Below, piece after piece: positions 14,933 through 31,621 of a stretch of DNA of 32,743 nt. Both the position numbers and the translations under genes were made by a program. This stretch comes from Acetobacterium woodii (lineage in GTDB: Bacteria; Bacillota; Clostridia; Eubacteriales; Eubacteriaceae). The DNA lies in NCBI GenBank assembly GCA_016213825.1, contig JACQZP010000029.1, forward strand, positions 1-32,743, in the 5' to 3' direction. The notes beneath the pieces are model-generated. The model saw nothing but the letters and a program-made list of their open reading frames with translations. It searched no databases and was not told where the DNA came from. The stretch's first letter is position 1. Every line of letters starts with the position of its first letter.

Positions 14933-17900
14933 TTAATACTTATGCTTGGAATAAAAAACAAACTGATTCTTTCCGTTATTCTTGGCAAGATACATCGCTT
15001 TATCTGAATTTAAAATCAATTCTTCGGCTGTCATCCCGTCAAAATTCAACAAACTAATACCGATACTCGATGTTACAACGGCTTGAACCCGCAAGTCATC
15101 AAACACAATCGGCATCTCCACAGCCGCTATGATCCGATGGCAAACGCTTTTGATTTCCGAAATCGACTGAACATTTTCCAGAATCAGCACAAACTCGTCT
15201 CCACCCATTCGCGAAACAGTATCACAACCTCGCACCGAAGCTACAAGCCTTTGTGCGACTGTCATCAGAACGAGATCACCCTTGTCGTGACCGTATTGAT
15301 CATTGATGAACTTGAAGCCATCCAGATCAATAAACAAAACCGCCAAATTTGATTTGTTCATACCGGCCAGTTCAATGGAGTGCTCCAGATATGTCTGAAA
15401 CATTCTACGATTCGGCAGATTGGTAAGATAATCATAATTCGCCATTTGTTCAAGTCGCTTTTCAACATTCATTCTTACGGCAATTTCTGCTCGTAACTCC
15501 CGGGTTCTGTCATCAACTAATTGCTGCATATTATTGAATAAATAAGCATTTTCAAGAGAGATAGCCAGCTGTGCCGCAATTATTTTTAACGCCTCGGTAC
15601 GCTGTTTGTCAAATACACCTTCGATCAAATTGTTTTCAAGGTAAAGAAGCCCTTTAAGTTCGCCCTTATTGATCACCGGCAAACACATCACCGATTTACA
15701 ACCATGCGATAAAATATATTCATCACTTCCATAAATATCTGAAGCCGTTGTGTCATCAATAATCACACTCTCATGAGCTCTTTCCACATAATTAAGGATT
15801 TTCAGCGGAAGGCTGCCTGTTTCAACTGGCAGATCAGCCAAAATTGAAAATGATTCGCCTTCTGAATGACCTTCGGCTTGAACAAAGTAATCATCCCCTT
15901 TTTTTATCAGGTAGTAGATATCCTGGGCACCTGAATTTTCAAGCAATACACCGATGAGTCTTTCAAGGATTGCTTCAAGCTTTGTTTCCCCTGAAATTGC
16001 TTGCGATGCGCTAATGATTGCTGAAAAGTCAATTACTGATGAATTTTTTAAGAACATTCCCGAAGAGATACTGATTTTTGAGTTTGACACCGTTTTGGCA
16101 GTAACCGGGCGGTCTTCTCTAAACTTTAAACTGTTGAATCGCAAACGTGATAATACATCGTACTCTTTATTCATCTGTTCAGTTTTTGCGGTTGCTCCCC
16201 AGGATAAATATGCTGAATATGCCTGTTTCAGATAAATCGTCGCTAATCGCAGTGAATCCATTTTCATGAATTGAATACCTGCCAATTCACAGGCCAAAGC
16301 ATAATGATAAATCCGGTTGCTTTCAGCTGCACCGATCATGGCTTTTTCATATAAGACCAACATTTTTTTGTATACATTAAAGGAATCGGTATTTTTATTT
16401 TCAAGCATATACTTTTCGGCTTCAATCAAATCGTACAAATGACGAAAATTACCGGGGGCATCGGCGGCGCGTTCACCGAGCCAAATCTGATTGGTGGTCA
16501 GTTTGCAAATTAGCAAGGTCTTTTCTTCCTCGGTGCACGTTTCACGCTCTATTTTTTTGCAAATAGCAAGTGAATTGAGAAAATTATGCAAGACATTTGC
16601 ATAAAAGCCGGTTATTGACGGCATTAATGGTGCCGCCTTTTCGGTCAGTTCAAATACCGTATCAAAATCCAGATAAATTGCTGCCGAAAGGGATCGCAGC
16701 GTATAATAAAAACAAAGTGCCATATTGTTTTCACTGACTTCCCGAAGATGTGCCGCTTCATTAAAACCACTATCATTAAAACTGCCCTGCGAACCTGTCG
16801 TTACCAGTGATTTGCACAATTGCCGAAACGCTATAAAGCTTCCGTAAGCATGGATATTCCCATGTTGTTGGGCAAATGCCAAGGCCGTATCCGACTCGGC
16901 GACCAACTCATCTATATTTCCGCACGTTTCAAGGATCATCTGCTGGGTCGTAAAATAAGTGAAACAGGCAAACTCAAAATCGCCAACGGTGATGTTACCA
17001 CTGCATGATTCCCGGGCATAGATCATACAATTCTTTAGATCTTCAAACCAATGGCAATTAATCAGGGCAAACAAATGATACATCCGAAATATCCGGTATC
17101 CGTTTTTTTCAGCTAATGTCATGGCACTGCGAACAAGATGATAGGATAACGTGTAATCATTTCGAAACGGGATCAATAACAGCGTCAAACTGCCATAGAG
17201 CGATAGCCCATCTGGGGTATAGCCGTTTTCAAGCACCCGCTTGGCACTGGTAATAATCGCCCAGAATGAGAAAAGCGGATTATAGAAAAAGCCCGCTGTG
17301 CAAATCCGGTTTAAAATCTTGCCAATCGAAAATTCCAATACACAATCGGCCTCTGGCAGGGCTTCAACTCCTGGAAACGCCTCGTTATTAATTTCATCAT
17401 AGAAGATCGCTATTTCCTTTAAAATTGTGTTTAACAAATCATCCGCCGGAAAATGGATCCCTAATTTCTCCAATAGTGCAATCCCCAGCATAAATGCATC
17501 CTGATATTGGCCTCGATTAGAAAGGCCAATCGCCTGGAGACAGCAGCTGTCGGTGAGATTAATCGGCTCTGCTGCCATATCTTCAAGCAAAACATAGATG
17601 GCATCTGCTTGCTCATATTTTGCGATGCTGCATAAAGCCAAATGATATTCAAGATACACCGAAAAAATCAAATCATCATCAACGTGCATTTCATCAAAGC
17701 TGTCGATAATTTGCTCCAGATAATGAATAGCCGTATCAAATGCCGAGGCAAGCGATGCCAAATGCGCTACTCGAAGAAGCATATCGGATACCCTTCTTTT
17801 TTCAGTTGCTTCATCAATCATCCTAAAGGCCTTGGAGTAATTATCCGCCATGACAAACTGCTTTTTAGTGTGTTTACCCTTTCCAAAACCGATTTTTTCA

Positions 17901-20005
17901 TAATGTACAGCCAGCTGGTAATGGATCTTGCCTCTTTTTATTTCTGGCAATATCGTATAAAAGGTTTGCTGAAATCGGTCATGGGCAAATTGAAATTCAG
18001 CTTCATCGCTGCCAATGTTATTGATGATCGGGTAGACCACCTCAAGTGAAACCGCCTGCCTTAAATCATTTATAATTTGCTCAGGCTTCTCTCCGGATAT
18101 CTCAGAAAGGGTACTTATTTTAAATCGTTGCCCGATACAGGCTCCTAGCGAAAGTATTTTTACTGTTTCTTGAGGCATCTGATTCACATTCCGAATCAGA
18201 AAGTCCACCACATTCTCTTCAGCTGGACAGGCTTTAATCGCCTCGATATTCCATTTCCAACTTTTTTCCTGGTCATCAAAAAAGATGAATTTTTCCCGCC
18301 AGCATAACTTAATAAATTGCTTGAGATAAAATGGATTCCCATTCGTTTTAGTGTAGATAACATCCGTCAGCTCAGTAACGGATGTTGTGCTGCAATGAAA
18401 AGCATCGGCAAGCATTTGTGTTGCCGCATCAAGGACTAATCCCGCAAGGGTTATTTGCCGGATATTCACTTGCCTGATAACCATCTTATTTAGACTGTGA
18501 ATCAGCGGATGACCCTCACTGATTTCATTGTTGCGGTAGCAGGCCACTATTTGCAAACCACTGATTTGATCATTTTCCATTATTTCTTCAATCATTGCCA
18601 TTGAACCCATGTCGGCAAGGTGAATATCATCAATAAAGATTACCAGTGGTCGGTCAGGCGAAGCAATCACTGCCAACAAGCTCTGTAAAGCCGCCTTAAG
18701 TCTGGTTCCTTTCTCAAGTGGCGAAAGCTCCGGCTGCTGCTGGGATGCACCCAAAAGCAATGCCAGTTTGGGAATTTTTTCAACAAGAAGCTGGCCATCC
18801 TGCTTAAGAGCCGTTTCAATCCGTTCTTTCCAAAGCTTAACATTTTTTTCATTTTCAGCAAGAACAAAATCGCAAAACTGCTCGATCGCCTGGGAAATGG
18901 CAATGTATGGTATATTTCTAAGATACTGGTCAAATTTTCCCGAGATAAACATGCCATTTGAGTTGGCCATCGGTTTATACAGTTCGCTCACCAATGAAGT
19001 CTTACCAATACCAGAATGCCCTGCTAGTGTCACCAGTTGCTTTCCGCCTTTTAAAATTTCCTGATAGGCTGACACAAGAACGGCAATCTCATTATCTCGA
19101 CCGTATAATTTTTTCGGCATTTCAAAATGATCCAAATAATCCCCAGCGCCAAGTTCGAATTGGACAATTTGATCATCTGCGTCAAGCATTTCACAACACT
19201 TATTCAGATCAAATAAAATCCCTTCTGCTTTTAAATAGCGATCCTGTGGCATTTTTGCCATCAGCTTAGCGACAAGCTGCGACAGCATTTGAGGTATATC
19301 CGGATTAAGCTCTTTAACTAATGGCGGCAACTTTGCCAGATGCATATAAATAATTTGTGATTGGCTCTCTGATTCAAAGGGATGGCAACCACAGAGCATT
19401 TCAAAAAAAGTGACGCCCAACGAATAAAAGTCCGTTCTAAAGTCAATCAAATGATTCATTCTGCCCGTCTGTTCTGGAGAGATGTAGTATAAAGTTCCTT
19501 CCGAAACGGGCGTGTCCATAGTCAGGGATTTTTCGTGTGAAAATGCTGTTGATAATCCAAAATCAATAATCATGACCTTTCGGGTTTTATCATTGAAGAT
19601 AATATTGGCTGGATTTAAGTCTTTATGGATAAAACCGGCATTATGAATATCTGAAAGTGCCTGAACAATTTGCTGACCAATATCAAGAAACTCTCGAATC
19701 GATATTTTGTGATTCTTGATATAATCCTGAATGGAAATCCCATCACAATAGTCCAATACTAAATAAAAAACATCGTCAATTTTTAAATAATCAATCGCTT
19801 CCGGAACAAAACTGCTCTTGATTTTTTTTAAGATGGCGTATTCATCCTGAAGCTTAGCAAACCCGAACGCATTGATTATGTCTTCATTTGTAGTCTTCAA
19901 GATAACGGATTTTCCCGTCAGTTTATTGATCGCTGTATAGACATTGCTATTTTTTGAACTGTACATGTGTTTGATATTATGATAATGATCGCCCGTGTTA
20001 AGCAT
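14933..20005 (-). CDS. Giant Ser/Thr kinase - AAA ATPase - GAF - GGDEF signalling protein
   Basis: At 1690 residues this joins four modules. Residues 1-275 are a Hanks-type kinase with VILK (K37), HKDLNPAN (D129, N134), DFG (148-150) and ISPEQTGR, so catalysis looks intact. Residues about 300-600 are an AAA_16-type ATPase with Walker A GHSGIGKT (329-336) and Walker B FIDD (459-460). A long alpha-helical repeat region (about 650-1340) leads to a GAF domain (about 1350-1500), a coiled linker (DDRTRELRAEIAVRM) and a diguanylate cyclase with GGDEF (1601-1605) and the product-inhibition motif RxxD (1592-1595). No membrane helix is seen. The first half matches cyanobacterial HstK-like multikinases, which normally end in a histidine kinase. 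A SARP-like promoter lies at 20146-20178, about 140 bp upstream. Confidence 0.93.
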   Translation of the reverse strand: MLNTGDHYHNIKHMYSSKNSNVYTAINKLTGKSVILKTTNEDIINAFGFAKLQDEYAILKKIKSSFVPEAIDYLKIDDVFYLVLDYCDGISIQDYIKNHKISIREFLDIGQQIVQALSDIHNAGFIHKDLNPANIIFNDKTRKVMIIDFGLSTAFSHEKSLTMDTPVSEGTLYYISPEQTGRMNHLIDFRTDFYSLGVTFFEMLCGCHPFESESQSQIIYMHLAKLPPLVKELNPDIPQMLSQLVAKLMAKMPQDRYLKAEGILFDLNKCCEMLDADDQIVQFELGAGDYLDHFEMPKKLYGRDNEIAVLVSAYQEILKGGKQLVTLAGHSGIGKTSLVSELYKPMANSNGMFISGKFDQYLRNIPYIAISQAIEQFCDFVLAENEKNVKLWKERIETALKQDGQLLVEKIPKLALLLGASQQQPELSPLEKGTRLKAALQSLLAVIASPDRPLVIFIDDIHLADMGSMAMIEEIMENDQISGLQIVACYRNNEISEGHPLIHSLNKMVIRQVNIRQITLAGLVLDAATQMLADAFHCSTTSVTELTDVIYTKTNGNPFYLKQFIKLCWREKFIFFDDQEKSWKWNIEAIKACPAEENVVDFLIRNVNQMPQETVKILSLGACIGQRFKISTLSEISGEKPEQIINDLRQAVSLEVVYPIINNIGSDEAEFQFAHDRFQQTFYTILPEIKRGKIHYQLAVHYEKIGFGKGKHTKKQFVMADNYSKAFRMIDEATEKRRVSDMLLRVAHLASLASAFDTAIHYLEQIIDSFDEMHVDDDLIFSVYLEYHLALCSIAKYEQADAIYVLLEDMAAEPINLTDSCCLQAIGLSNRGQYQDAFMLGIALLEKLGIHFPADDLLNTILKEIAIFYDEINNEAFPGVEALPEADCVLEFSIGKILNRICTAGFFYNPLFSFWAIITSAKRVLENGYTPDGLSLYGSLTLLLIPFRNDYTLSYHLVRSAMTLAEKNGYRIFRMYHLFALINCHWFEDLKNCMIYARESCSGNITVGDFEFACFTYFTTQQMILETCGNIDELVAESDTALAFAQQHGNIHAYGSFIAFRQLCKSLVTTGSQGSFNDSGFNEAAHLREVSENNMALCFYYTLRSLSAAIYLDFDTVFELTEKAAPLMPSITGFYANVLHNFLNSLAICKKIERETCTEEEKTLLICKLTTNQIWLGERAADAPGNFRHLYDLIEAEKYMLENKNTDSFNVYKKMLVLYEKAMIGAAESNRIYHYALACELAGIQFMKMDSLRLATIYLKQAYSAYLSWGATAKTEQMNKEYDVLSRLRFNSLKFREDRPVTAKTVSNSKISISSGMFLKNSSVIDFSAIISASQAISGETKLEAILERLIGVLLENSGAQDIYYLIKKGDDYFVQAEGHSEGESFSILADLPVETGSLPLKILNYVERAHESVIIDDTTASDIYGSDEYILSHGCKSVMCLPVINKGELKGLLYLENNLIEGVFDKQRTEALKIIAAQLAISLENAYLFNNMQQLVDDRTRELRAEIAVRMNVEKRLEQMANYDYLTNLPNRRMFQTYLEHSIELAGMNKSNLAVLFIDLDGFKFINDQYGHDKGDLVLMTVAQRLVASVRGCDTVSRMGGDEFVLILENVQSISEIKSVCHRIIAAVEMPIVFDDLRVQAVVTSSIGISLLNFDGMTAEELILNSDKAMYLAKNNGKNQFVFYSKHKY

Positions 20006-20145: not shown

Positions 20146-20178
20146 ATTATAGGGTTGAATTTTGAACCAGATTTGAAC
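20146..20178 (-). promoter_or_regulatory. SARP-like operator/promoter of the kinase-GGDEF gene
   Basis: On the minus strand GTTCAAA (20178-20172), 4 nt, GTTCAAA (20167-20161), 9 nt, then TATAAT (20151-20146). The two heptamers are an exact direct repeat with an 11-nt period. The hexamer 17 nt before the -10 (AAATCT) is not a -35, so the promoter should need an activator. The predicted start of transcription is about 135 nt before the ATG. The same layout is found at 30283-30315. Confidence 0.72.
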
Positions 20179-20207
20179 AACTGCTCCTGCTAAATCGTCT
20201 GTAACGC

Positions 20208-20254
20208 AAAAAAGGCTGATCCATTCAGTTTATTACCAAATTCACCAACCTTTT
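20208..20254 (-). terminator. Terminator of the pseudokinase/histidine-kinase gene
   Basis: On the minus strand AAAAGGTTG (20254-20246) pairs with CAGCCTTTT (20218-20210, one G-T pair) and is followed by TTTTTT overlapping 20213-20208. It lies 29 bp past the 3' end of the upstream giant gene (20283) and before the SARP-like promoter, so the two giant genes are probably separate transcripts. Confidence 0.6.
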
Positions 20255-20282
20255 GATAAAACACGTTATTGCTATTTATTTT

Positions 20283-23200
20283 TTAATATTGACTTTCTAG
20301 TGAAGCATTGCTCTGCGAGGATTGAGCCATCCGTACCATTGGGATCTGTATTACCGCCCGGGTTCCTCCTCCCGACATTCTTTCTATTTCTAAACCATGT
20401 CCATACAATCTCACTAATCGCATATTGATATTTTTCAATGCTACCCCCGAGCCTTCGCTACCATTTTGACACTTTTCAAAGACATCCTCCGGAATTCCGA
20501 CGCCATCGTCCGTAACGCTGATGATGACAGATTCTTCTTTGCGATGAACTGAAATTTTAACGGTACCGCCATTTTTTTGTGCTGCCAAACCATGCTGTAC
20601 GGCATTTTCTACCAAGGGCTGAATAATAAGAGGCGGTAGTAGACATATAATCTGATCTTCAAGATCATAAACAATATTGAGCCGTTTGCCAAATCGGGCT
20701 TTCTCGATAAACAGATAGGCCTCCACCAGTTCCAGCTCCTTTTGCAGGGTTACAAGCTTATCCCGATTTTTAAAATCAAAGCTGCCCCGCAAGAACGCAC
20801 TGAGGTTTGCCAGTAAATCCCGGGTCATCTGTGGTTCATCCAAGGAAAAGGCGGCAATGGTATTAAGGGTATTGTAAAGAAAATGGGGCTTGATCTGTGC
20901 CTGCAAAAAGGCAATCTCAGATCGTAATAATTCCTCGGTGGAACGATGCAGCTCCTCCTTTGTCGCAATCAAGTTAGAAAATAATTGAACATTTCTGATT
21001 GAAATTGAAAATTGAGTGGCCAATAATTGAAGAATCTCAACCTGACTGTCAGTAAAAATCGCTTTGGCTAAATTGTTTTCGAGGTACAAGATTCCGGTGA
21101 TCATTCCCTGATTTTTAATGGGCATCGCGATCAGCGATTTTGTTTGATTTTTTTCAATATAAACATCCTGTTGGAACTCCCCCTGTCTTGCCGCATCCCT
21201 TAGTACCACCGCTTCGCCGGTGTGAATGCAAAAATTGATCACCGCCTGGGGCAGCAGTTCCTCGGCTTCTTTGAGGTTGACAGCTTGTAACACTTCAATC
21301 TCATCTTCACCGGTAAAAAAGGCTGCTTCGATCTTCCAGCCGGGTTCCTCCTTTAGCAGGAGATAGGCTTTCTGAGCCCCGGAATTTTCCACCACTATTT
21401 TCATAATTTTTCTTAACAAATCTGGCAGTTGCACTTCTTTGGCAACCGCTTGATAAGCACTGATGATAGCAATTAAGTCGATGTTTTGTACCGCCATCTT
21501 CTCGACAGTTGATATGTTATTCCCGGGAAGCTTAAGCAAATCATGGTATTTATCTGCCAGCTGCCTAACTTTTGCCGCTGCACCCCAACGCTGATAGCCC
21601 TGAAAGGCTTCACTCATAAAAAATGCAGCCTGTCTGTGCCTGCCTTGCGCTAAAAACATTTTGGCGGCCAGTTCATTTGTCAGCGCTTCATCCCGAAGAA
21701 AGCCATTTCGTGCCGCCGTTTCGGCTGCCACTTCGTAGTATTCAAGGGCTTGATCGATTTTTCCTTCAATTCGAGCCAGTTCAGCTTGCAACAGCAACTG
21801 CAGATGCAAAAAATTATCTGGGCAATAGCTTGACCACGCCTTCACATATTTATATTCACGCTTTAACCGCTTGAGCGCCTTTCTGCTTGCTTCCCCCTTC
21901 ATCCCGGCAAAATTCGCCGCTAGAACTAAAAAGCTGCAGATTCGGCACTCCACCACATAGGGTGTCCCGGCATGATATTTCAGATACTTATCCGATTCTG
22001 CCAGATAGTCCAGCGCTTTGGTATAATCGTCATATAAATAATGAATGTACATCTTTTCTTTATAGTACACCCCGATGCCGGATAACGAATTGGTTTCCCG
22101 AAAATTCTTAAGACATTGCTCTTCACTGCCAATGATTCCCATGCCACCATTTTGTTCCTGGGTCTGTTGAGATACATCCAGCGAGAATTGATGATCCGTT
22201 AAGCCCAGGTAATTGAGCCATCGATTGATAAATAAAAACGACATACTGTACCCATATTGGTTATTTGTCTGCCTGATTAAGGGAACCTGCTCCATCGCTT
22301 TTTGGGTTAATAATCTCAAATCCATATCTGCCTTGAAGGCATACATAAAAGTTCCGGCTAAAACCACCTGATAATGATCGCCAAACCTTAAAGCATCTTC
22401 CAGGGCTTTTTTAAACCATTGATCCACATCCTGAAAAGACTCACTCCAGGCATAGCCTAAAAAACCATAGGCAAATAAAACCCCAGCCCGAAATTTAGCC
22501 CGTTCTTCGGTTTCAACCAGCTTAAGCGCCAATTTGTGGAATTGATAAGAGCCTTTTAAATCCCCCAATACCGCCAGCAACACCCCATATCCAGAATAAA
22601 TCGAAACTGCTTCCTGACTATTTCCATATTTAAGAGTCAGACTTAGACTCTTTAAAGTTGAGAACAGAAACAAATTAACATTGCCGCCGTTATAGGTCAC
22701 ACTGCTTAACTCGCTCATAATTCGAATGATCAACTTTACTTTATCATTTTTTAGCGGGGCGGCATGCAAGAGCTGCTCTGTGCTTTTCCCCAGGAGCAGT
22801 CCTTTTGCCAAAGCCAATTCTTTAATAACCAGATGAAATCCTGGTTTAAACGGCAATCGAACTCCCAGTAGCCGTAAACCGAGGACGCCATAGTAAATTA
22901 CCTGATCCAGCTGTCCTAAATACCGATATAAAACACTCTGCATTAATCTGATTTCGGCCTGATCGATGGCAGTTTTGGCTTGCTTCATCAGGATCTCAAT
23001 CTGGGCTTCGGCCAACTTGTATTCCTTATTCAAGTAAGCGCATTCTGCATAGGTTTTGATTATTTCAAAAGTCAGCTGATAATCCTGACTCCAGGAATTA
23101 TCGGGCAAGAGACTAATTGCCTTTTCAATGTACTGCCGAGCCAGTTGAAAGGAGGTGGCCGCTTTGGCCTTTTGAGAAGCCCACAAATTTAATCGCAACA

Positions 23201-25217
23201 CCATTAATCGTTCTTCACGCTCAGCAATCAAGTCCAACCCTTCATTTAAATGACATACGATTTGAATCGCCTGATCCTTTACCTGATCAACCGGCAGATT
23301 CTGGCGGATACTGTTACCAATTTTTAAATGGAGCTGCTTTTTAATTTCCGGTTGAATCAATGCTTCACAGGCCTGTTGAATGCGGTCATGAGCAAATCTG
23401 AAGGTCCGCTTATCATCTGCTAGACTTAATTCGTAGTAATTATTTCCCGGGATAATAATTTCCCGATCAACGGCTTCCTTCAGATGGTCAATGATCTCCT
23501 GTTCATTCATATTCTGAACCGTCATTAACAACTTCAGGTCAAATATGGAGCCGATTAAAGCTCCGACTTTAAGCAACACTTGTGTCTGTAGTGGTAATTT
23601 TAAAATTTGCCCGATCATAAAGTCAACAATATTATCACTGATTGTCATATTCTGAATTTCTGCCTCGTCCCATTCCCACTGATGGTTGTCTTCTTTGTAA
23701 TAGATAAAATGGTCAGTATGCAGATGCAGCAACAAACTTCTGACAAAAAAGGGATTTCCTTGAGTTTTTCTGTGAATGAGTCTGGCCAGAATTTCTGCTT
23801 TCTCCTGATTGCAATGGACGGTATCAATAATAATCTGGGCAACATGCTTCTGATCCAACGCTTTGACAATCAGGCTTGAAGCCTGGCTCATTTTTTGAAG
23901 TTCACCAAGCGAACAATTCAATGGGTGATTTTCTTGAATTTCATTATCCCGGTAACCAATAACAATAATCAAGCTGTCCAGCTCGCCAAAGGTTAGCAGA
24001 TATTTGACCAACTCCAAGGAAGCCTGATCACACCACTGAAAATCATCTAAAAACACCGCCAAGGGCTGTTCTTTTCTCGCAAAGGATTTAAAAAAGTTGC
24101 CAAAAGTCGTTAAAAAACGGTTTCTGTTTTCTGTCGGCTCCAGTTCCTTTACTTCATCCTGTTCACCGATGATCAACCGAAGCTCTGGTACCAGATCAAT
24201 GATCAATTGTCCATTATTATTCAATGCTTTTAACAACCGCCTTTTCCACTGATCCAACATCAAATCCGATTCCTGCAAAAGCATGCGAGTTAATTCTCTG
24301 GTAATCTGTGTGAAAACAAAATAGGGGGTATTTACTTGTAACTGTTCCGCTTTACCACTGGCAAAAAAAACATCTACTTCAGTTGTCGATCGAAACATCT
24401 CCTGAATCATGGCTGTTTTTCCCACGCCTGCGCAACCACCTACCAGAAGAATCTGTGAGCCGCTTTCCAAAACCTGCTCATAGAGCTGCTGGATGATTTT
24501 TCTTTCTTTTTCCCGGCCATACAATTTTTGCGGGATCTGAAATTTGTTTGACCAATCATCACGTCCCAGTTCAAAATCTGCAACAACCCCAAAAGACCTG
24601 ATTGCCCCCATACAGCGTTTGAGATCACAGATAATCCCTGAAGAACTTTGATAACGGCGCTCCGGTTCCTTTTCCATTAATTTCATGATGATGTTAGAAA
24701 TAGCCTTCGGGATGCCCGGATTGATGTGATCCGGCGCTATCGGATTTTTGGCGATGTGGCAATGCATCATCTCCAGCATACTGTCAGCCATAAATGGTTT
24801 TTGTCCGGTTATTAATTCATACATGGTAACGCCAAGGGAATAATAGTTCGAACGATAATCGATGGTTCGACCCATTCGTCCCGTCTGTTCCGGTGAAATA
24901 TAGGTTAACAGATATAAATCAGGATGTTCTTTTGTGGTGATTGCAACTTTTTTAGATATTTGAACATTTATCATGGCGTCATGACCCAAAGCTGATTTTG
25001 CCACAAAGATATCCGGATTCACTGAAGCGAGAATCTGATTTTTTTTGTGACTTTCTTCAATCGTTGCGATCATTTCAATGAATAGCTTTATAATGGTTAA
25101 TAATTTATCCTTTGAAAGCTGCTGATCCCCATCTCTGATGCTTTTAAATAGTTGACTGTCAAAAATCGGCATTCCCTGGCTGCCCTGCCGATGAAAATCA
25201 TGCTTTTGCTCCTGCAT
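20283..25217 (-). CDS. Giant pseudokinase - AAA ATPase - GAF - LytS-type histidine kinase
   Basis: The 1644-residue protein parallels its neighbour but differs at both ends. Its kinase region is degenerate. There is no glycine loop or catalytic Lys, the catalytic loop reads HKKNQILASVNPDIF (no Asp), and DFG is missing. YISPEQTGRMGR (about 106-117) and the C-lobe (YYSLGVTMYELITGQKPF) remain. An AAA_16-type ATPase follows (Walker A GGCAGVGKT, 260-268; Walker B FLDD, 391-392), then helical repeats, a GAF domain (about 1250-1400), and a LytS/YehU-type kinase: QIKPHFLYNTLN (H1445), PLVENAVQHG (N1538), DDGVGIP, and GSGVALKNINMRL. The start is ATG after GGGGG at 7 nt. It lies 31 bp after the BTAD response regulator, its likely phosphorylation partner. 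Confidence 0.93.
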   Translation of the reverse strand: MQEQKHDFHRQGSQGMPIFDSQLFKSIRDGDQQLSKDKLLTIIKLFIEMIATIEESHKKNQILASVNPDIFVAKSALGHDAMINVQISKKVAITTKEHPDLYLLTYISPEQTGRMGRTIDYRSNYYSLGVTMYELITGQKPFMADSMLEMMHCHIAKNPIAPDHINPGIPKAISNIIMKLMEKEPERRYQSSSGIICDLKRCMGAIRSFGVVADFELGRDDWSNKFQIPQKLYGREKERKIIQQLYEQVLESGSQILLVGGCAGVGKTAMIQEMFRSTTEVDVFFASGKAEQLQVNTPYFVFTQITRELTRMLLQESDLMLDQWKRRLLKALNNNGQLIIDLVPELRLIIGEQDEVKELEPTENRNRFLTTFGNFFKSFARKEQPLAVFLDDFQWCDQASLELVKYLLTFGELDSLIIVIGYRDNEIQENHPLNCSLGELQKMSQASSLIVKALDQKHVAQIIIDTVHCNQEKAEILARLIHRKTQGNPFFVRSLLLHLHTDHFIYYKEDNHQWEWDEAEIQNMTISDNIVDFMIGQILKLPLQTQVLLKVGALIGSIFDLKLLMTVQNMNEQEIIDHLKEAVDREIIIPGNNYYELSLADDKRTFRFAHDRIQQACEALIQPEIKKQLHLKIGNSIRQNLPVDQVKDQAIQIVCHLNEGLDLIAEREERLMVLRLNLWASQKAKAATSFQLARQYIEKAISLLPDNSWSQDYQLTFEIIKTYAECAYLNKEYKLAEAQIEILMKQAKTAIDQAEIRLMQSVLYRYLGQLDQVIYYGVLGLRLLGVRLPFKPGFHLVIKELALAKGLLLGKSTEQLLHAAPLKNDKVKLIIRIMSELSSVTYNGGNVNLFLFSTLKSLSLTLKYGNSQEAVSIYSGYGVLLAVLGDLKGSYQFHKLALKLVETEERAKFRAGVLFAYGFLGYAWSESFQDVDQWFKKALEDALRFGDHYQVVLAGTFMYAFKADMDLRLLTQKAMEQVPLIRQTNNQYGYSMSFLFINRWLNYLGLTDHQFSLDVSQQTQEQNGGMGIIGSEEQCLKNFRETNSLSGIGVYYKEKMYIHYLYDDYTKALDYLAESDKYLKYHAGTPYVVECRICSFLVLAANFAGMKGEASRKALKRLKREYKYVKAWSSYCPDNFLHLQLLLQAELARIEGKIDQALEYYEVAAETAARNGFLRDEALTNELAAKMFLAQGRHRQAAFFMSEAFQGYQRWGAAAKVRQLADKYHDLLKLPGNNISTVEKMAVQNIDLIAIISAYQAVAKEVQLPDLLRKIMKIVVENSGAQKAYLLLKEEPGWKIEAAFFTGEDEIEVLQAVNLKEAEELLPQAVINFCIHTGEAVVLRDAARQGEFQQDVYIEKNQTKSLIAMPIKNQGMITGILYLENNLAKAIFTDSQVEILQLLATQFSISIRNVQLFSNLIATKEELHRSTEELLRSEIAFLQAQIKPHFLYNTLNTIAAFSLDEPQMTRDLLANLSAFLRGSFDFKNRDKLVTLQKELELVEAYLFIEKARFGKRLNIVYDLEDQIICLLPPLIIQPLVENAVQHGLAAQKNGGTVKISVHRKEESVIISVTDDGVGIPEDVFEKCQNGSEGSGVALKNINMRLVRLYGHGLEIERMSGGGTRAVIQIPMVRMAQSSQSNASLESQY

Positions 25218-25248
25218 GTATGTGCCCCCATAATCATTTCAATACTTT

Positions 25249-26370
25249 TTAAACTTCTTCAAACGCTGAGTAAGGATTAGAAATTAATGTCTCCATATCA
25301 ATATTTTCCCATGATTCTGCTTCTTTTTTAACATTTTGATAATGGGCTTGGGCCGCTTCTTTATTATTCAGCAAAAAATAAACGGCAATGATCTTTACAT
25401 GAATTGATGCATTAAATGGGAAATTTTTCTCCAATTTTTTTAAATAAAGTAAGGCCGACTCAAATTTTTGTTTTTGAACTTCGGTTTCAATAATTTTTTC
25501 CATGAGCTCAAGATAATTCAGTTCTAATTCAGCCTGTCTTCCTGCTGCCCATAAATATCCGTTATGCATTAAATAACCATCCTGATACAGATCAATAGCC
25601 AATTTTTGTTCCTCCAGATTAAGATGTCCTTCTTTAAATTGTTTATACAACGCCAAAAATTCATGATAGTCCCATTTATCAGGCATCCACACCAGCGAAC
25701 ATTTTCCACCATCTTTGCGGCTACTTTGAATGGTATTATTCAATCCAAAATGATCAAGATCCTTTCGCAATTGATAAAGCGTCGTATAAAAAATTGATTG
25801 CGCCCGGTCAGCACCCCGATCATACCAGAGTTCTTCCATGATATTTTCTTTTGATATTGCATTACCCTGTTGATGAATTAAAAAAGCAAAAAGTTCTTCC
25901 GTCTTTGCGGTTCGAAATTGCATCTTTTCGCCCTGCTCTGCGACTACCGAAAATCGCCCAAATGAACAAACCGACACATGATGGTGCTTTTTATTGCGGC
26001 CTTGTTCTGACCGTCTTTTTTCATACCGATTCAATGTTTTGTTGATTCGCTCTGCTGTTAAAGGTTTTAAAATATAATCAAAGGCCTCAATTTCAAAGGC
26101 ATCGACTGCATAGCTGTCATAGGCGGTAACAAAGACTATTGCCACTTCCGGCTTAATTTCGTTGATTCGCCCAGCCAATTCAAGCCCCAGCATCCCCGGC
26201 ATTTTCATATCCAGAAAGATCAAATCGACTTCAATCATCGGCAAACCTTCCATCAGCTCTTCCTGATCTGAGTAAGAGCCACATATTTTTACGTCGTTGC
26301 ATGTCATTAAAACACTTTCAGCCATTTTCAGTGCCGGCAACTCGTCATCTACAATTATTACTCGAATCAT
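25249..26370 (-). CDS. Response regulator with SARP-like winged helix and BTAD output
   Basis: Residues 1-120 are an intact receiver: D8, D9, phosphoacceptor D54 (FLDMKMPG), T82 and K102 (ILKPLTAERIN). A linker leads to a winged helix (about 133-225; FRTAKTEELFAFLIHQQGNA, then SKENIMEELW and QSIFYTTLYQLRKDL), followed by a BTAD helical domain (about 229-365; WDYHEFLALYKQF, SALLYLKKLEKNFPF). This is the receiver-SARP architecture, not the LytTR output that usually pairs with LytS-type kinases. SARPs bind heptamer direct repeats 11 bp apart, and two such sites occur in this window (20146-20178 and 30283-30315). The ATG follows AGGGAG by 9 nt. Its own upstream region lacks the heptamers, so expression may be independent of itself. 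Confidence 0.9.
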   Translation of the reverse strand: MIRVIIVDDELPALKMAESVLMTCNDVKICGSYSDQEELMEGLPMIEVDLIFLDMKMPGMLGLELAGRINEIKPEVAIVFVTAYDSYAVDAFEIEAFDYILKPLTAERINKTLNRYEKRRSEQGRNKKHHHVSVCSFGRFSVVAEQGEKMQFRTAKTEELFAFLIHQQGNAISKENIMEELWYDRGADRAQSIFYTTLYQLRKDLDHFGLNNTIQSSRKDGGKCSLVWMPDKWDYHEFLALYKQFKEGHLNLEEQKLAIDLYQDGYLMHNGYLWAAGRQAELELNYLELMEKIIETEVQKQKFESALLYLKKLEKNFPFNASIHVKIIAVYFLLNNKEAAQAHYQNVKKEAESWENIDMETLISNPYSAFEEV

Positions 26371-26440
26371 CGGTCAATTCTCCCTTAATGTATTCTTTGT
26401 CAATCTTAACATATTTTTTCATTTTTAAATATATACGTCG

Positions 26441-26487
26441 AAAAAAGCTGACTCAAAACGGCTTTGTAAGTTTTGCATCAGCTTTTT
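26441..26487 (-). terminator. Rho-independent terminator of the ABC exporter operon
   Basis: AAAAAGCTGA (26442-26451) pairs with TCAGCTTTTT (26478-26487); an inner CAAAAC/GTTTTG extends the stem. On the minus strand six T residues follow. It lies 130 bp beyond the ABC operon and before the response-regulator start, insulating the two; it could work in both directions. Confidence 0.8.
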
Positions 26488-26620
26488 CAAAACTAATCTC
26501 CACAACCAAGGATTGGATAACGATTGCTCTACCATCCCTCCAGTAGCTAAAATTTTTCAAGCCACTTAACAGCTACCTTCCACAATCACCTGTTGTGGAT
26601 GGACACCGCCTTCAACTATA

Positions 26621-28459
26621 TTAACCAACCTCTGGTGCCGCTGCAAACTGGCTCTCGTACATTTGCCGGTAAAAAGTTTCTTCGGCCAGAAGTCCTTCAT
26701 GCGTTCCTTTTTCGATAATGTCACCATCTTTCATTACCAAAATCATATCTGCTGTTTTGATGGTTGACAGGCGATGGGCAATAACGAAGCTGGTTTTGCC
26801 CTCCATAATCTGAGCCATAGCATTCTGGATTGCCAACTCAGTTCGGGTATCCACGCTGGAAGTCGCCTCATCCAGAATCAACAGAGTCGGATTAACCAGC
26901 ATCACCCGGGCAATGGTTAGAAGCTGCATTTCTCCCTGGGACAGACTGCCATCTTCACCGGCAATCACCGTGTCATATCCCTTTGGCAGGGTCCGAATAA
27001 AGTGATCGCATCGGGATGCCGTTGCCGCCGCCACAATCTCCTCGCGGGTGGCATCCATTTTGCCATAGGCGATGTTTTCGGCGATGGTACCATTAAACAA
27101 CCAGGTATCCTGTAATACCATCCCCACAATTTTTCGCAACTGACTTTTTGACAGCTCCCGAATGTCGGTATCGTCAATTAGAATGCGTCCGCCATTTAAT
27201 TCATAAAACCGCATCAGCAGATTAACCAAGGTGGTTTTTCCGGCGCCAGTTGGTCCAACAATGGCCACCATTTCATTGGGCTTCACCGACAAACTGACGC
27301 CATTCATCAGCATCTTCTCGGGAATATAACCAAACTGCACATTCTCAAAGGTCACCGCTCCCCGGGTTTTTGGTAACTCTTTCAATGAGGGACTATCTGG
27401 CAGTTCTTCTTCCTCATCCAATACATCTAACACCCGCTCCACCGATGCCATCGCAGCCTGGAAAGAATTGAGAAAATAGGACGACTGGGTAATGGGCTCA
27501 GAAATCTGATTGACATATTGCAAAAACGCCTGCACGATCCCAATGGTCATCGTATTGTTGACAACCAGAATTCCGCCGACAATCGCCGTCATTACGAAAC
27601 CCAACTGCGTCAGAAAGCGGATCACCGGATAAATAGCAAACATCACAAACTGGGCTTTTTTATTAGCTTCGTACTGCCGCTGGCTAATGGCTTTAATTGT
27701 TCCCTGCATCGCTTCCTGACGGTTAAAGGTTTTGATAATCAGATTTCCGGTAAACATCTCTTCGATTTGGCCGTTTAACTCCCCTAAAACCGACTGATTA
27801 TCCAAGGATACCTTGAAATTCTTGGCCGAAATCCATTTGGTAACCACCACACTGATGGACATGGACAACAAAATCAGAACCGTCAAAAAAGCATTGAGCG
27901 ATAGCATCACTGCGATGCTAACCACAATATTCACCGCACCGTTAATAAACTGGAGCAATCCCGTTTTCAGCACCTCGGCCACCCGATCCAGATCGTTGGT
28001 GGTTCTGCTTAACAAATCACCAGTCTGGTGGGAATCGTAATAGCGTAACGGCAACTTTGTTATTTTTTCACTGACTTTTTTGCGTAACGAAAGCACCAGC
28101 TTTTCACCGACGCTGGCCATGGTATACTCTTGCACAAACGAGAAACAGGCACTTAATAAATAGGCTGCCGCCAGTATGATCAGCGGTACTCCGATGATTT
28201 CCGCCAACTCGGCAAAGCCTCCGCCGGGGCCGTTTACCTGCAGGGTACCAATTAGAGCATCGATAGCCCATCCCATAATCAGCGGAGTCACGGCAAACAA
28301 GCCGATACTTAGCAGCGTAGACAGTGCAATCAATACCATAGCGACTTTCTGCTCTAAAAGTAGAGAAATCAGTCGTCTGATGGTTTTTTTGGTATTTTGG
28401 GGTGCATCCACCATTTCCGGGTTTATGCTCGATCGTTCTTGTGTATTTTTCTCATCCAT
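26621..28459 (-). CDS. ABC exporter half-transporter, catalytic-Glu subunit
   Basis: The 612-residue protein has a six-helix ABC_membrane domain and a C-terminal nucleotide-binding domain. Walker A is GPTGAGKTT, Walker B LILDEATSSVD keeps the catalytic Glu, and the switch is IAHRLS. The signature is LSQGEMQ instead of LSGGQ, so the composite ATP site it forms with the partner's Walker motifs is weakened. This is the TM288/BmrD-type half of a heterodimeric exporter. It begins 3 bp after the partner gene, with AAGGGAGGG upstream. Family substrates are drugs, lipids or peptides; none is indicated here. It extends about 60 residues (mostly polar) before the first helix. Confidence 0.95.
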   Translation of the reverse strand: MDEKNTQERSSINPEMVDAPQNTKKTIRRLISLLLEQKVAMVLIALSTLLSIGLFAVTPLIMGWAIDALIGTLQVNGPGGGFAELAEIIGVPLIILAAAYLLSACFSFVQEYTMASVGEKLVLSLRKKVSEKITKLPLRYYDSHQTGDLLSRTTNDLDRVAEVLKTGLLQFINGAVNIVVSIAVMLSLNAFLTVLILLSMSISVVVTKWISAKNFKVSLDNQSVLGELNGQIEEMFTGNLIIKTFNRQEAMQGTIKAISQRQYEANKKAQFVMFAIYPVIRFLTQLGFVMTAIVGGILVVNNTMTIGIVQAFLQYVNQISEPITQSSYFLNSFQAAMASVERVLDVLDEEEELPDSPSLKELPKTRGAVTFENVQFGYIPEKMLMNGVSLSVKPNEMVAIVGPTGAGKTTLVNLLMRFYELNGGRILIDDTDIRELSKSQLRKIVGMVLQDTWLFNGTIAENIAYGKMDATREEIVAAATASRCDHFIRTLPKGYDTVIAGEDGSLSQGEMQLLTIARVMLVNPTLLILDEATSSVDTRTELAIQNAMAQIMEGKTSFVIAHRLSTIKTADMILVMKDGDIIEKGTHEGLLAEETFYRQMYESQFAAAPEVG

Positions 28460-28462
28460 GAC

Positions 28463-30190
28463 TTAGCCCTCCCTTTTAGCCTGAGAATCTGCAATTTCCC
28501 GATAGAGACTACAGTTTTTCAGAAGTTCTTCGTGACGGCCGATTCCCGCAATTTTTCCGTTATCCAGCACAATGATCTGATCAGCATCCATAATGCTGCT
28601 GATGCGCTGGGCAACCACCACCAGACAGGCTTCTTTCATCGTCAGCTTCAGTTCACTTCTCAACGCCGCATCGGTTTGATAATCCAGTGCCGAAAAGCTG
28701 TCATCGAAAATATAAATGGGTGCTTTTTTAACCAAGGCCCGGGCAATACACAAGCGTTGCTTTTGTCCACCGGAGAAATTGCTGCCGCCCTGAGCAACCG
28801 GGCTCTGATATCCTGCTTCCAGCGTGGTAATAAAGGCCTCTGCCTGGGCAATTTTGGCTGCCTGCCGGAGTTCCAAATCGGTGGCGTCGGGTTTGCCGGT
28901 GCGCAGATTGTCAGCAATGGTGCCGCTGAACAAAAACGCCTTCTGGGGTACATAGCTGATGCACTCCCGTAGATCCTGCTGGGTCATCTTCTTGATGTCA
29001 TTTCCCGCTACAAAAATCTCACCTTCCTGAATGTCATAAAGGCGCAGCATCAATGCCACAATGGTACTTTTACCCGAACCGGTTCCCCCAATAATGGCAG
29101 TTGTTTTTCCAGCTTCACAACCGAAACTGATATTTCTCAGAACCGGCTCTTCCGCCCCCTGATAAGAAAAACTGACGTCATTAAAGGCGATTCGCTTGCT
29201 ACCCTTGACGCTTGGCGATACTACTGCTTCCGGATCGTCGGCTATTTCAGGCTCTGTATCCAATACCTCACTGATTCGTTCCAGACAGGCAATCATCCGA
29301 GGGACCATTACAATAACCATTGCCGACATCATCAAAAACATCAAGATAATCACGGTATATTGCATGACTGCCATAATGCTGCCAATCTGAGTAGTTGCCT
29401 GCAACACCATATACCCGCCAAACCACACCACCGCCACCATAGTAATCCCCATAATTGCCCACACCATCGGATTAAACATCGCAAAAATCCTATTGAGGTG
29501 AATCACATTGTCGGCATATGCCACAAAGGTATCATCCGAACGTTTCTGCTCATAGCTGGTGTTGTCAAATGCTCGGATTACCCGCACACCTACAACCGAT
29601 TCCCGAACAATCCGATTAACCCGATCGACCCGGTTTTGGATGGTTCGGGAAATCGGGCTTGCTTTTTTAAAAAGAACCAGAATCAGAATTAAAAAAACCA
29701 CCATCGCTACCAAAGGAATATAAACCAATTCCATGCTGACCATCCCGGTCATCACTACGGCTGCCACCGCAATCAGTGGCGTTGGCAGAATCAATTGAGT
29801 GATCATGATCATGGTCTGCTGAATAATGGTAACGTCCCCGGTGGCCCGGGTGATCATGGAGGCTGTTCCAAATTGATTAAACTCTTTGATGGAAAGAAAC
29901 TGGGTTTTATCAAAGATCAGCTCCCGCATGTGTTTGCCAGTTAGTGATGCCAGATCGGCACACAGATAACTGCTCCAAAGCGAAATGAGGGCAGTGATTC
30001 CGGCTGCTGCTAACATCTCCAGACCGATCCAAAGAATGGTGTCGATATCTTTTTCCATGATTCCCACGTTGATAATTTGCGCAACAAAGAATGGCACCAG
30101 TAAAATCCCGAATACCTGCATCAAGGTTACCAGGATAATGGTGCCAATCATCCCTTTTTTGCTTTTAAGAAATACTATTAGATGGTTCAT
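28463..30190 (-). CDS. ABC exporter half-transporter, degenerate-site subunit
   Basis: This 575-residue half-transporter (start at 30190, AAGGAG 7 nt upstream; an in-frame ATG at 30217 lacks a ribosome binding site) has six helices then a nucleotide-binding domain. Walker A is GGTGSGKST and the signature is canonical FSGGQKQR. Walker B reads YIFDDSFSALD, with Asp replacing the catalytic Glu, and the switch is VAQRIS, with Gln for His. These are the hallmark changes of the TM287/BmrC-type subunit, which holds the non-hydrolysing site. With the downstream gene it forms one consensus and one degenerate ATP site. It is the first gene after the SARP-like promoter at 30283-30315. Confidence 0.95.
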   Translation of the reverse strand: MNHLIVFLKSKKGMIGTIILVTLMQVFGILLVPFFVAQIINVGIMEKDIDTILWIGLEMLAAAGITALISLWSSYLCADLASLTGKHMRELIFDKTQFLSIKEFNQFGTASMITRATGDVTIIQQTMIMITQLILPTPLIAVAAVVMTGMVSMELVYIPLVAMVVFLILILVLFKKASPISRTIQNRVDRVNRIVRESVVGVRVIRAFDNTSYEQKRSDDTFVAYADNVIHLNRIFAMFNPMVWAIMGITMVAVVWFGGYMVLQATTQIGSIMAVMQYTVIILMFLMMSAMVIVMVPRMIACLERISEVLDTEPEIADDPEAVVSPSVKGSKRIAFNDVSFSYQGAEEPVLRNISFGCEAGKTTAIIGGTGSGKSTIVALMLRLYDIQEGEIFVAGNDIKKMTQQDLRECISYVPQKAFLFSGTIADNLRTGKPDATDLELRQAAKIAQAEAFITTLEAGYQSPVAQGGSNFSGGQKQRLCIARALVKKAPIYIFDDSFSALDYQTDAALRSELKLTMKEACLVVVAQRISSIMDADQIIVLDNGKIAGIGRHEELLKNCSLYREIADSQAKREG

Positions 30191-30282
30191 GTACAAACTC
30201 CTTCCTTTTTCACCCAAAGACCTTTAAGCTGTTTGATATCTTTTATCACCTTTTTTTTCAATAATAAACACCTTTGCTTGTT

Positions 30283-30315
30283 ATTATAGCTATTTAGTTT
30301 GAACCGAATTTGAAC
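30283..30315 (-). promoter_or_regulatory. SARP-like operator/promoter of the ABC exporter operon
   Basis: On the minus strand GTTCAAA (30315-30309), 4 nt, GTTCAAA (30304-30298), 9 nt, then a perfect TATAAT (30288-30283). The hexamer at the -35 position (AAATTC) is poor. Heptamers, spacer lengths and -10 match those at 20146-20178 exactly, while the spacer bases differ. The 5' leader before the ATG would be about 85 nt. Confidence 0.75.
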
Positions 30316-30351
30316 AAAGGCTTTAGTGGATCCTACCAAAAACCACAAAAA

Positions 30352-30386
30352 TCTGGTGAATTCAACTTTTTCGCGAATTCACCAGA
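30352..30386. repeat. 12-bp perfect hairpin upstream of the ABC promoter
   Basis: TCTGGTGAATTC (30352-30363) and GAATTCACCAGA (30375-30386) flank an 11-nt loop. The minus strand continues TTTTTG, terminator-like, but no minus-strand gene lies directly upstream. It is upstream of the TATAAT, so it is not in the ABC leader. It may insulate the operator region from read-through. Confidence 0.55.
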
Positions 30387-30607
30387 CTTTTGACAAAATC
30401 CATTTTATTTTATAGAATATTAATTATTTTATAAGTATCAGACTGATATGATTAAATTTTTTTAAAACTCCTTTTGAATCTCCCGAAGATTTATCTACTT
30501 CGGGTTTAACTGGATGAATCAGGGGATATCAGAATGAAATCATACTGCCTAAACAAGATGGCGTTAAACGATTTCGCACTAATCTATTTTATAAAGGATG
30601 TGAACCA

Positions 30608-31621
30608 ATGAGCAAAGTAAAAGAAACACGACTTCCTTACCTAAACAATACCTCTGCTATTTTCATCACCCTGACCATCAATCTTGGCATCTTATTAATA
30701 ACCGGATGGGGTCAGGCATTCGACTTTACATTTATTCTTGTTGATGCTGCCATCAGTGGTGTTCTGACTTCGGTGATCAACGTCTTGCTGGTTCGCCACT
30801 ATGTCAACATCGCCAAAAAAAATCGCAGCTTGCCAACAAACATTCCGATTAGTCGGTTTATGATGCGACTGCCAAAGAATACCTATCTCTTTGCAGGATT
30901 GTGTGCTCTTTTTTTCGGTCTCCTGACACCGCTTATTAACGGCTTCGTCTTCAACTACTATGGTTTTGAAACCCTTTCCTTTTCTCAGATGCTTGTTTTA
31001 AAGCTGATCTATTGCTACTTCCTCAGTGCCAAAATACTGGAGGTCGCTATTTTTCGCTTCGTCCAGCCGGATTTAACCGGTCAGATGCCTAATCAAGCCA
31101 CCACCGCTGCTCCTCCCAAACACTCGGCTCCACGCGTTTCTTCTTTTCAACAGTTGTTCAACAATTGGATGACCGACTTTGGATTAAATATGTTCCGCGG
31201 TCTGATCTTAGGCACCACCATCGTTACCAGTACCGACTATGTCCTGATTGCACCCACACTCCTTCGCAGCGTGGCTACAACCGGCCCCATCTCTGGTATC
31301 ATTGTTACCTTTATGACGGTCCCCGCTATTGCTGGTGAAATCATTTTTTCAGTTGGAGCCGGAAAAATCACGCCGTTGGCAAACTCAAATTCTTTAATCG
31401 CCTGGTTGCCAAAGAACCGGTGGCTACTGGCTTTTGCGCTCTGCCTGCCAATCATTATTCTGACCACCGCCGTCTATTTCGCGGTCCTGAGCTTTTTCGG
31501 ATTTCAGTCTCTGAATTTTTTCCAGTTTTTCTTTATCCGAACTGCTTATACGACCGTGCTGGTTAAGTCGGCACTGGTTCCTCTGATTATGTTTCGTTAC
31601 CGACAGCCTAATGCGGTTTAA
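30608..31621 (+). CDS. Internally duplicated integral membrane protein, unknown function
   Basis: I do not recognise the family. The 337-residue protein has about eight hydrophobic segments in two similar halves joined by a polar Pro/Ala-rich linker (about residues 160-178). The repeat is clearest where LPKNTYLFAGLCAL ... YYGFETLSFSQMLVLKLIY (first half) matches LPKNRWLLAFALCL ... FFGFQSLNFFQFFFIRTAY (second half), each ending FRFVQPD or FRYRQPN. Such duplication suggests a pseudo-symmetric transporter or channel. The ATG follows AAAGGA. A weak hairpin (30482-30504) lies upstream. It is divergent from the ABC exporter operon. No signal peptide. Confidence 0.85.
   Translation: MSKVKETRLPYLNNTSAIFITLTINLGILLITGWGQAFDFTFILVDAAISGVLTSVINVLLVRHYVNIAKKNRSLPTNIPISRFMMRLPKNTYLFAGLCALFFGLLTPLINGFVFNYYGFETLSFSQMLVLKLIYCYFLSAKILEVAIFRFVQPDLTGQMPNQATTAAPPKHSAPRVSSFQQLFNNWMTDFGLNMFRGLILGTTIVTSTDYVLIAPTLLRSVATTGPISGIIVTFMTVPAIAGEIIFSVGAGKITPLANSNSLIAWLPKNRWLLAFALCLPIIILTTAVYFAVLSFFGFQSLNFFQFFFIRTAYTTVLVKSALVPLIMFRYRQPNAV

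Follow-up and report, generated by a model that had tools for sequence, protein, structure and literature searches.

The window, a stretch of 32,743 nucleotides that forms contig C19 of the 3.94-Mb Acetobacterium source genome (G000), contains two promoter elements of the form GTTCAAA-N4-GTTCAAA-N9-TATAAT, and we consider it likely that the receiver-BTAD response regulator whose gene lies between them uses both as operators. Judging by the sequence comparisons described below, the elements are specific and very probably functional, and the most likely role of the regulator is to activate an ABC exporter operon and the gene for a kinase-GGDEF protein. SARPs are known chiefly for activating the antibiotic clusters of actinomycetes. 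In an acetogen, a SARP gated by a receiver, together with its predicted operator, would provide a concrete DNA target for a little-studied class of regulators. If this is true, a two-component signal is tied to an exporter and a predicted c-di-GMP enzyme, and targets become predictable in relatives, where several of these regulators adjoin giant surface proteins.

The two elements and their locus

The transcription order on the minus strand is element 2, the first and the second exporter gene, an intergenic region, the regulator, a 1644-aa kinase, element 1, and the kinase-GGDEF gene. The features are as follows.

30346-30392, minus strand: hairpin 5' of element 2, homologous to the hairpin at element 1 (fold -26.4 kcal/mol, z -6.8)
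30283-30315, minus strand: element 2, heptamers 30309-30315 and 30298-30304, TATAAT 30283-30288, upstream of the ABC exporter genes
28463-30217, minus strand: ABC half-transporter 1, proposed target; likely ATG at 30190, after GGAAGGAG
26621-28459, minus strand: ABC half-transporter 2, proposed target, same operon as half-transporter 1
26371-26620, minus strand: intergenic region 5' of the regulator gene
25249-26370, minus strand: receiver-winged helix-BTAD response regulator, proposed activator (Pfam, AlphaFold, Foldseek)
20283-25217, minus strand: 1644-aa protein, proposed partner kinase (Pfam: partial Ser/Thr kinase-like region, AAA_16, GAF, His_kinase, HATPase_c)
20214-20250, minus strand: hairpin followed by a T run, terminator-like, separating the kinase gene from element 1 (fold -13.2 kcal/mol, z -2.4)
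20146-20178, minus strand: element 1, heptamers 20172-20178 and 20161-20167, TATAAT 20146-20151, upstream of the kinase-GGDEF gene
14933-20005, minus strand: 1690-aa Ser/Thr kinase-AAA_16-GAF-GGDEF protein, proposed target (Pfam)

Both elements match the pattern given in the earlier note without a mismatch. In each, the heptamers are repeated with a spacing of 11 bp, and TATAAT follows 9 bp after the repeat. No -35 hexamer was found 15-19 nt 5' of either -10 (the best match comprising two of the six bases), and a promoter scan detected no ordinary sigma-70 promoter at element 1 or element 2. For SARPs, the literature describes heptamers with 4-nt spacers (PMC5930380, partial text) and repeats spaced by 11 or 22 bp, the last of them about 8 bp from the -10 (PMC10936776, partial text). 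The distance of 9 bp here compares with the published 8 bp, the borders of the repeats being counted differently.

The intergenic region 26371-26620 contains no GTTCAAA pair, so autoregulation of the BTAD regulator via the element was rejected, and the regulator and kinase genes probably have a promoter of their own. The 1644-aa and 1690-aa proteins are ∼28% identical across most of their length. A putative leader peptide preceding the exporter, spotted by eye in the G000 sequence, was dropped because its frame stops early in a related genome (G010). On the opposite strand, a divergent gene for a 337-aa protein without Pfam match (30608-31621) has a good sigma-70 promoter, TTGACA-17-TAGAAT at 30390-30418 (plus strand), which overlaps the hairpin 5' of element 2.

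The regulator and its proposed mode of action

The regulator combines a receiver domain (Response_reg, 75 bits, with D54 within FLDMKMP) with an OmpR-type DNA-binding domain (Trans_reg_C, 26.4 bits at a cut-off of 26.2) followed by BTAD (30 bits at a cut-off of 22.1), that is, an output part of the SARP type. As the receiver has its aspartate and the next gene encodes His_kinase and HATPase_c domains, the pair has the composition of a two-component system, with phosphorylation itself being predicted. The AlphaFold model had a mean pLDDT of 84.5 for the full-length protein and 88.4 for the C-terminal half. For the full-length model, Foldseek matched AfsR plus many OmpR-type regulators, and VIA-align yielded matches of the receiver domain only, which are uninformative about the output domain, and this is why a separate model was made of the C-terminal half. 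Its PDB matches at E ≤ 0.001 (six rows) were confined to AfsR (8k60 and 8hvr, both AfsR within its transcription complex) and EmbR (2fez and 2ff4), with TM-scores of ∼0.7 normalised by the query, so that the C-terminal half is predicted to fold like these two proteins. A phmmer search with a partial regulator query produced no useful PDB match. In AfsR, the recognition-helix residues T88 and R92 contact the box (PMC10936776, partial text); at these positions the regulator has threonine and glutamine, respectively, according to our own mapping anchored on the LRK motif.

The mechanism that we propose relies on analogy with AfsR, from which we infer binding by the regulator, the role of phosphorylation, and activation. 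The histidine kinase (20283-25217) would phosphorylate the receiver domain of the regulator, and two regulator molecules would then sit side by side, one per GTTCAAA, on the same face of the helix and at the usual place of the -35 box. The bound molecules would recruit RNA polymerase to the TATAAT located 9 bp downstream, and the ABC exporter genes and the kinase-GGDEF enzyme would thus be switched on.

Like AfsR and the Streptomyces SARPs, the regulator is predicted, by the fold match, to have an OmpR-type winged helix and a BTA domain, and the elements resemble the afs box in having direct repeats spaced by 11 bp just 5' of a -10 and no good -35 (PMC10936776, partial text). Unlike these proteins, it carries a receiver in front, rather than being a SARP alone or having a NOD-TPR tail; its host is an acetogenic Firmicute, and its repeat is GTTCAAA. 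The candidate targets also differ from those of SARPs, being an exporter and a kinase-GGDEF enzyme, and in the window we noted no antibiotic cluster. Response regulators with the receiver-winged helix-BTAD order are presumably those of COG3947, which share the domain order of the window regulator. Among the papers listed for Clostridium, Clostridia, Firmicutes, COG3947, the SAPR family, and A. wieringae response regulators, none appeared to concern the operator of a receiver-BTAD regulator, subscription papers being thinly covered.

Conservation, rarity and competing explanations

Full-length close homologues of the regulator occur in four of the 19 genomes of the genus sample, these being G000 itself, G017 (96% identity), G016 (86%), and G010 (72%). 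The comparison of orthologous loci proposed in the earlier note came out in its favour in two of the relatives, as G017 has both elements (the exporter element exact, site 1 with TATACT as the -10) and G010 has an exact exporter element, with no kinase-GGDEF orthologue at the threshold used. It came out against it in G016 (A. wieringae DSM 1911, locus L153), which has neither element although its regulator ORF is intact. In this genome the counterpart of window positions 29762-31543 is absent, and with it the promoter of exporter 1, element 2 included, and the first 152 codons of this gene; similarity to the window extends no further than the end of the kinase gene, and both this gene and the one for exporter 2 are broken, each into two reading frames. 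The absence of the elements therefore accompanies decay of the locus, despite the intact regulator ORF.

Between the exporter and the regulator, G010 and G016 carry another gene containing a GGDEF region (L148:8139-9815 and L153:8484-10067), the one in G010 encoding a HisKA_7TM-PAS-GGDEF protein. Because this other gene stands where the kinase-GGDEF gene is missing, each of the four genomes has a GGDEF protein at the locus, in one of two forms. In G017, the kinase-GGDEF gene is disrupted near codon 10 (L154:1-150 and L240:10500-10698), and the contig ends of L154 and L240 have ATGTGCGAAGTTTGAG and a short repeat in common, as the insertion of a mobile element would leave.

As a control, we considered 11 loci of the genus where an exporter half is 60-64% identical to the first ABC protein and lies on another contig or distant from the BTAD regulator; a partial twelfth copy in G006 was left out. 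No GTTCA pair occurs within 400 bp upstream of any of the 11 (three or four mismatches of 10 at best), and eight have a promoter of the TTGAC...TATGATA type. G000, G010, G016, and G017 each also carry such a paralogue. Since the unlinked paralogous exporters lack the element, it goes with the regulator and not with the exporter family.

Similarity of the two elements by chance is scarcely credible. The genome-wide search suggested in the earlier note recovered the exact 18-mer GTTCAAA-N4-GTTCAAA at two places in G000, both being the window sites, and at none for the reversed control. With up to two mismatches, the 18-mer is just moderately over background (64 places compared to 39 in the control), which would suit a chance origin; hence only near-exact copies are informative. 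The entire 33-mer with up to three mismatches was absent from 100 dinucleotide shuffles of the window (mean 0.00). In 67 genomes of the order, it occurs with at most one mismatch at five places in three genomes (one place for the reversed control), and all five belong to loci of the window's receiver-BTAD regulator, the independent lineages being few, as G000, G010, and G017 are close relatives. The shuffles and the 67-genome counts already make a chance origin very unlikely. Two further exact 18-mers were rejected: one in G001 is within a 3065-aa ORF, the other, off-locus in G010, is within a broken kinase-like reading frame, and neither has a -10. Single GTTCAAA copies are more numerous in the window than the earlier note had it: apart from the elements it listed positions near 786, 12147, and 12596, while there are 16 copies including four within the elements (9.7 expected; 16 reached by 6 of 100 shuffles), and the copy placed at about 786 is at 802.

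The two sites probably descend from one old duplication of a terminator-operator-promoter module, in which the operator and the -10 have since been kept. Between the sites of G000, all 20 functional bases are identical as against five of the 13 spacer bases (Fisher 9e-5), and the flanks are identical at 31 of 60 upstream and 16 of 50 downstream positions. Among the five elements known, six of the 10 pairwise comparisons give 20/20 functional bases and four give 19/20, the latter all involving G017 site 1 with its TATACT. The exporter promoters of G000 and G017 share the full 18-mer and the -10 and agree at 39 of 60 positions upstream and 23 of 50 downstream; however, orthologous exporter promoters alone say little, because in all three comparisons the spacer, too, is largely preserved (10-12 of 13). 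Further upstream, the 107-110 bases 5' of both elements are homologous around the hairpin: the score between the G000 sites is 37, compared to 26 for the best of 500 shuffles, and that between the upstream region of the G010 exporter and the G010 kinase terminator is 63 (shuffle maximum 28). Two of the 15 upstream comparisons are weak, namely G017 site 1 with site 2 (22, reached by 5 of 500 shuffles) and G000 site 2 with G017 site 1 (28, shuffle maximum 27). No further copy of the upstream module was seen in 151 kb of other G000 sequence, which is a small part of the genome. The view that the elements are not a simple sequence duplication thus stands as regards recent copying, and fails as regards common origin, given the homologous upstream hairpin; the argument for it from differing spacers does not hold either, since the G017 sites have the same 18-mer, spacer included. 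The hairpin common to both upstream regions would also agree with promoters that were simply inherited with the duplicated module, being constitutive or serving some unknown regulator, with a repeat that has no role. This we consider quite improbable, as the functional bases have been kept at 20 of 20 while the spacer and flanks diverged, and there is no -35 box.

The geometry of the elements, which had been taken to point to a SARP, is no proof of one, because PhoP-type regulators and the OmpR-type response regulator RR2 have it too, the box of RR2 being near-identical. RR2 (G000:C26:35807-36478; 35807-36544 for the locus; orthologues at L185-L198), found in 16 of the 19 genus genomes at the threshold used, is the main rival for the window elements: it might bind them, with the BTAD regulator having other targets, or both might compete, although we find this rather unlikely. 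In 13 of its 16 orthologous loci, TTCAA-N6-TTCAA-N10-TAYAAT lies 5' of its own gene (GTTCAAGATTCATTCAACTTAAGATGATACAAT in G000), and a relaxed pattern occurs in the 19 genomes at 31 places (three in the control), which are 13 RR2 promoters, five at BTAD loci, and 13 scattered. PhoP of M. tuberculosis likewise requires 7-bp repeats with a 4-bp spacer (PMC4832192, partial text). Yet for all the wide distribution of RR2, the GTTCAAA form with a -10 is found only at BTAD loci; position 7 of the repeat is A in five of five window-type elements and in none of 13 RR2 boxes; RR2 is encoded on a different contig; and GTTCA repeats also occur at two distant receiver-BTAD loci, the RR2 survey having covered the 19 genus genomes. 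Phosphate-type control, with a PhoP orthologue using the elements as PHO boxes, deserves little credence. PhoB/PhoP boxes do consist of two 7-bp repeats with a 4-bp spacer, that of S. coelicolor being GTTCACC in 11-nt units, and PhoP and AfsR compete at afsS in this species (PMC4415409, partial text). But PhoB/PhoP have no BTA domain, their regulon is not local, and their repeat differs at positions 6-7. Moreover, the relaxed pattern has just four places in G000 (the two window elements, the promoter of RR2, and a site within a coding ORF, with phosphate genes not located), so that this pattern reveals no larger regulon using the box. As to RR2 itself, a similar repeat in G014 faces the gene divergent from it, and the G006 orthologue (G006:C29:22320-22952) was read with one in-frame TAG.

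Distant receiver-BTAD loci and other BTAD proteins

A profile search identified two more receiver-BTAD regulators in G004, a member of the genus, and two in other families of the order (one in G024, one in G061). In all four loci (L151, L152, L254, and L255), the neighbors are a kinase of the His_kinase type and a giant surface protein, the latter bearing ChW, YDG, collagen-binding, SpaA, or Cna_B-type domains; at a Pseudogracilibacillus locus (L005), the next gene begins, in our reading, like that of a secreted protein. In six intergenic regions (1504 bases) beside these five distant regulators, we searched for GTTCA-N6-GTTCA, allowing one mismatch, with TAnnnT 11 bp further on. The pattern is present in two of the six, in G024 and in the regulator's own promoter in G061, and the second G061 region has the GTTCA repeat in a 22-bp-spaced form; no GTTCA pair was found in the regions of the two G004 loci (G004a and G004b) or L005, leaving two of five distant loci positive. 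The background is four hits in 3.24 Mb of strand (one RR2 promoter, one hit in L014, and two that represent a single conserved box close to a PAS-BTAD gene in two genomes), and the bare numbers overstate the strength of the result, because the exact form of the test was settled after the sequences had been seen. The region of G004b contains a perfect 7-base repeat of another sequence with a period of 11. In a test of periods, 11 ranked top for G004b (shuffle fraction 0.001) and for the two G061 regions (0.062 and 0.024), and shared the top rank for G024 (0.063); it did not rank top for G004a (0.14) or L005 (0.48). In G024, G061, and G004b, the regions between regulator and target have a hairpin 5' of the repeat, as at element 1.

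The residue at the T88 position is threonine in the lineages with GTTCA repeats and leucine, asparagine, or serine in the three without. This correlation is suggestive, not exclusive, because RR2 has valine there, in our reading, and still has TTCAA boxes. The statement of the earlier note that the regulator activates both of its targets is favored by the uniqueness of the motif, the five near-exact copies at its loci, the 11 paralogues devoid of the element, the predicted SARP fold, and the related operator at two of the five distant loci; the three loci without it and the non-specific geometry weigh against. More tentatively, and with somewhat less than even confidence, the receiver-BTAD regulators of Clostridia may be a class of self-contained local regulons outside actinomycetes. 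A portable module of terminator, GTTCA-type 11-bp repeat, 9 bp, and -10 would stand before neighboring targets, an exporter and a GGDEF enzyme here and giant surface proteins in distant members, and the operator would follow the recognition helix, threonine at AfsR T88 going with GTTCA.

Matches to the regulator in G041-G044 cover residues 3-239 only. The second BTAD protein of G000, encoded on C15, is of PAS type and comprises 422 aa. A conserved GTTAACA-TAAC-GTTCACA box is located 4-5 kb from the PAS-BTAD gene in G000 and G014, and was not found in G018. A conserved box GTTAACATAACGTTCACA-N9-TATTAT, at a distance of 4-5 kb from a PAS-BTAD gene in two genomes, is present in L201 near 4900 (minus strand) and in L204 near 13690 (plus strand), upstream of an ORF of 130-141 aa. 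Among the plasmid matches listed (best 25 of 93 and best 25 of 47), no record covers 80% of the query; the annotated ones are mostly BtsR/YehT or LytTR-type receivers, and one is a locus on a Butyrivibrio plasmid (L287).
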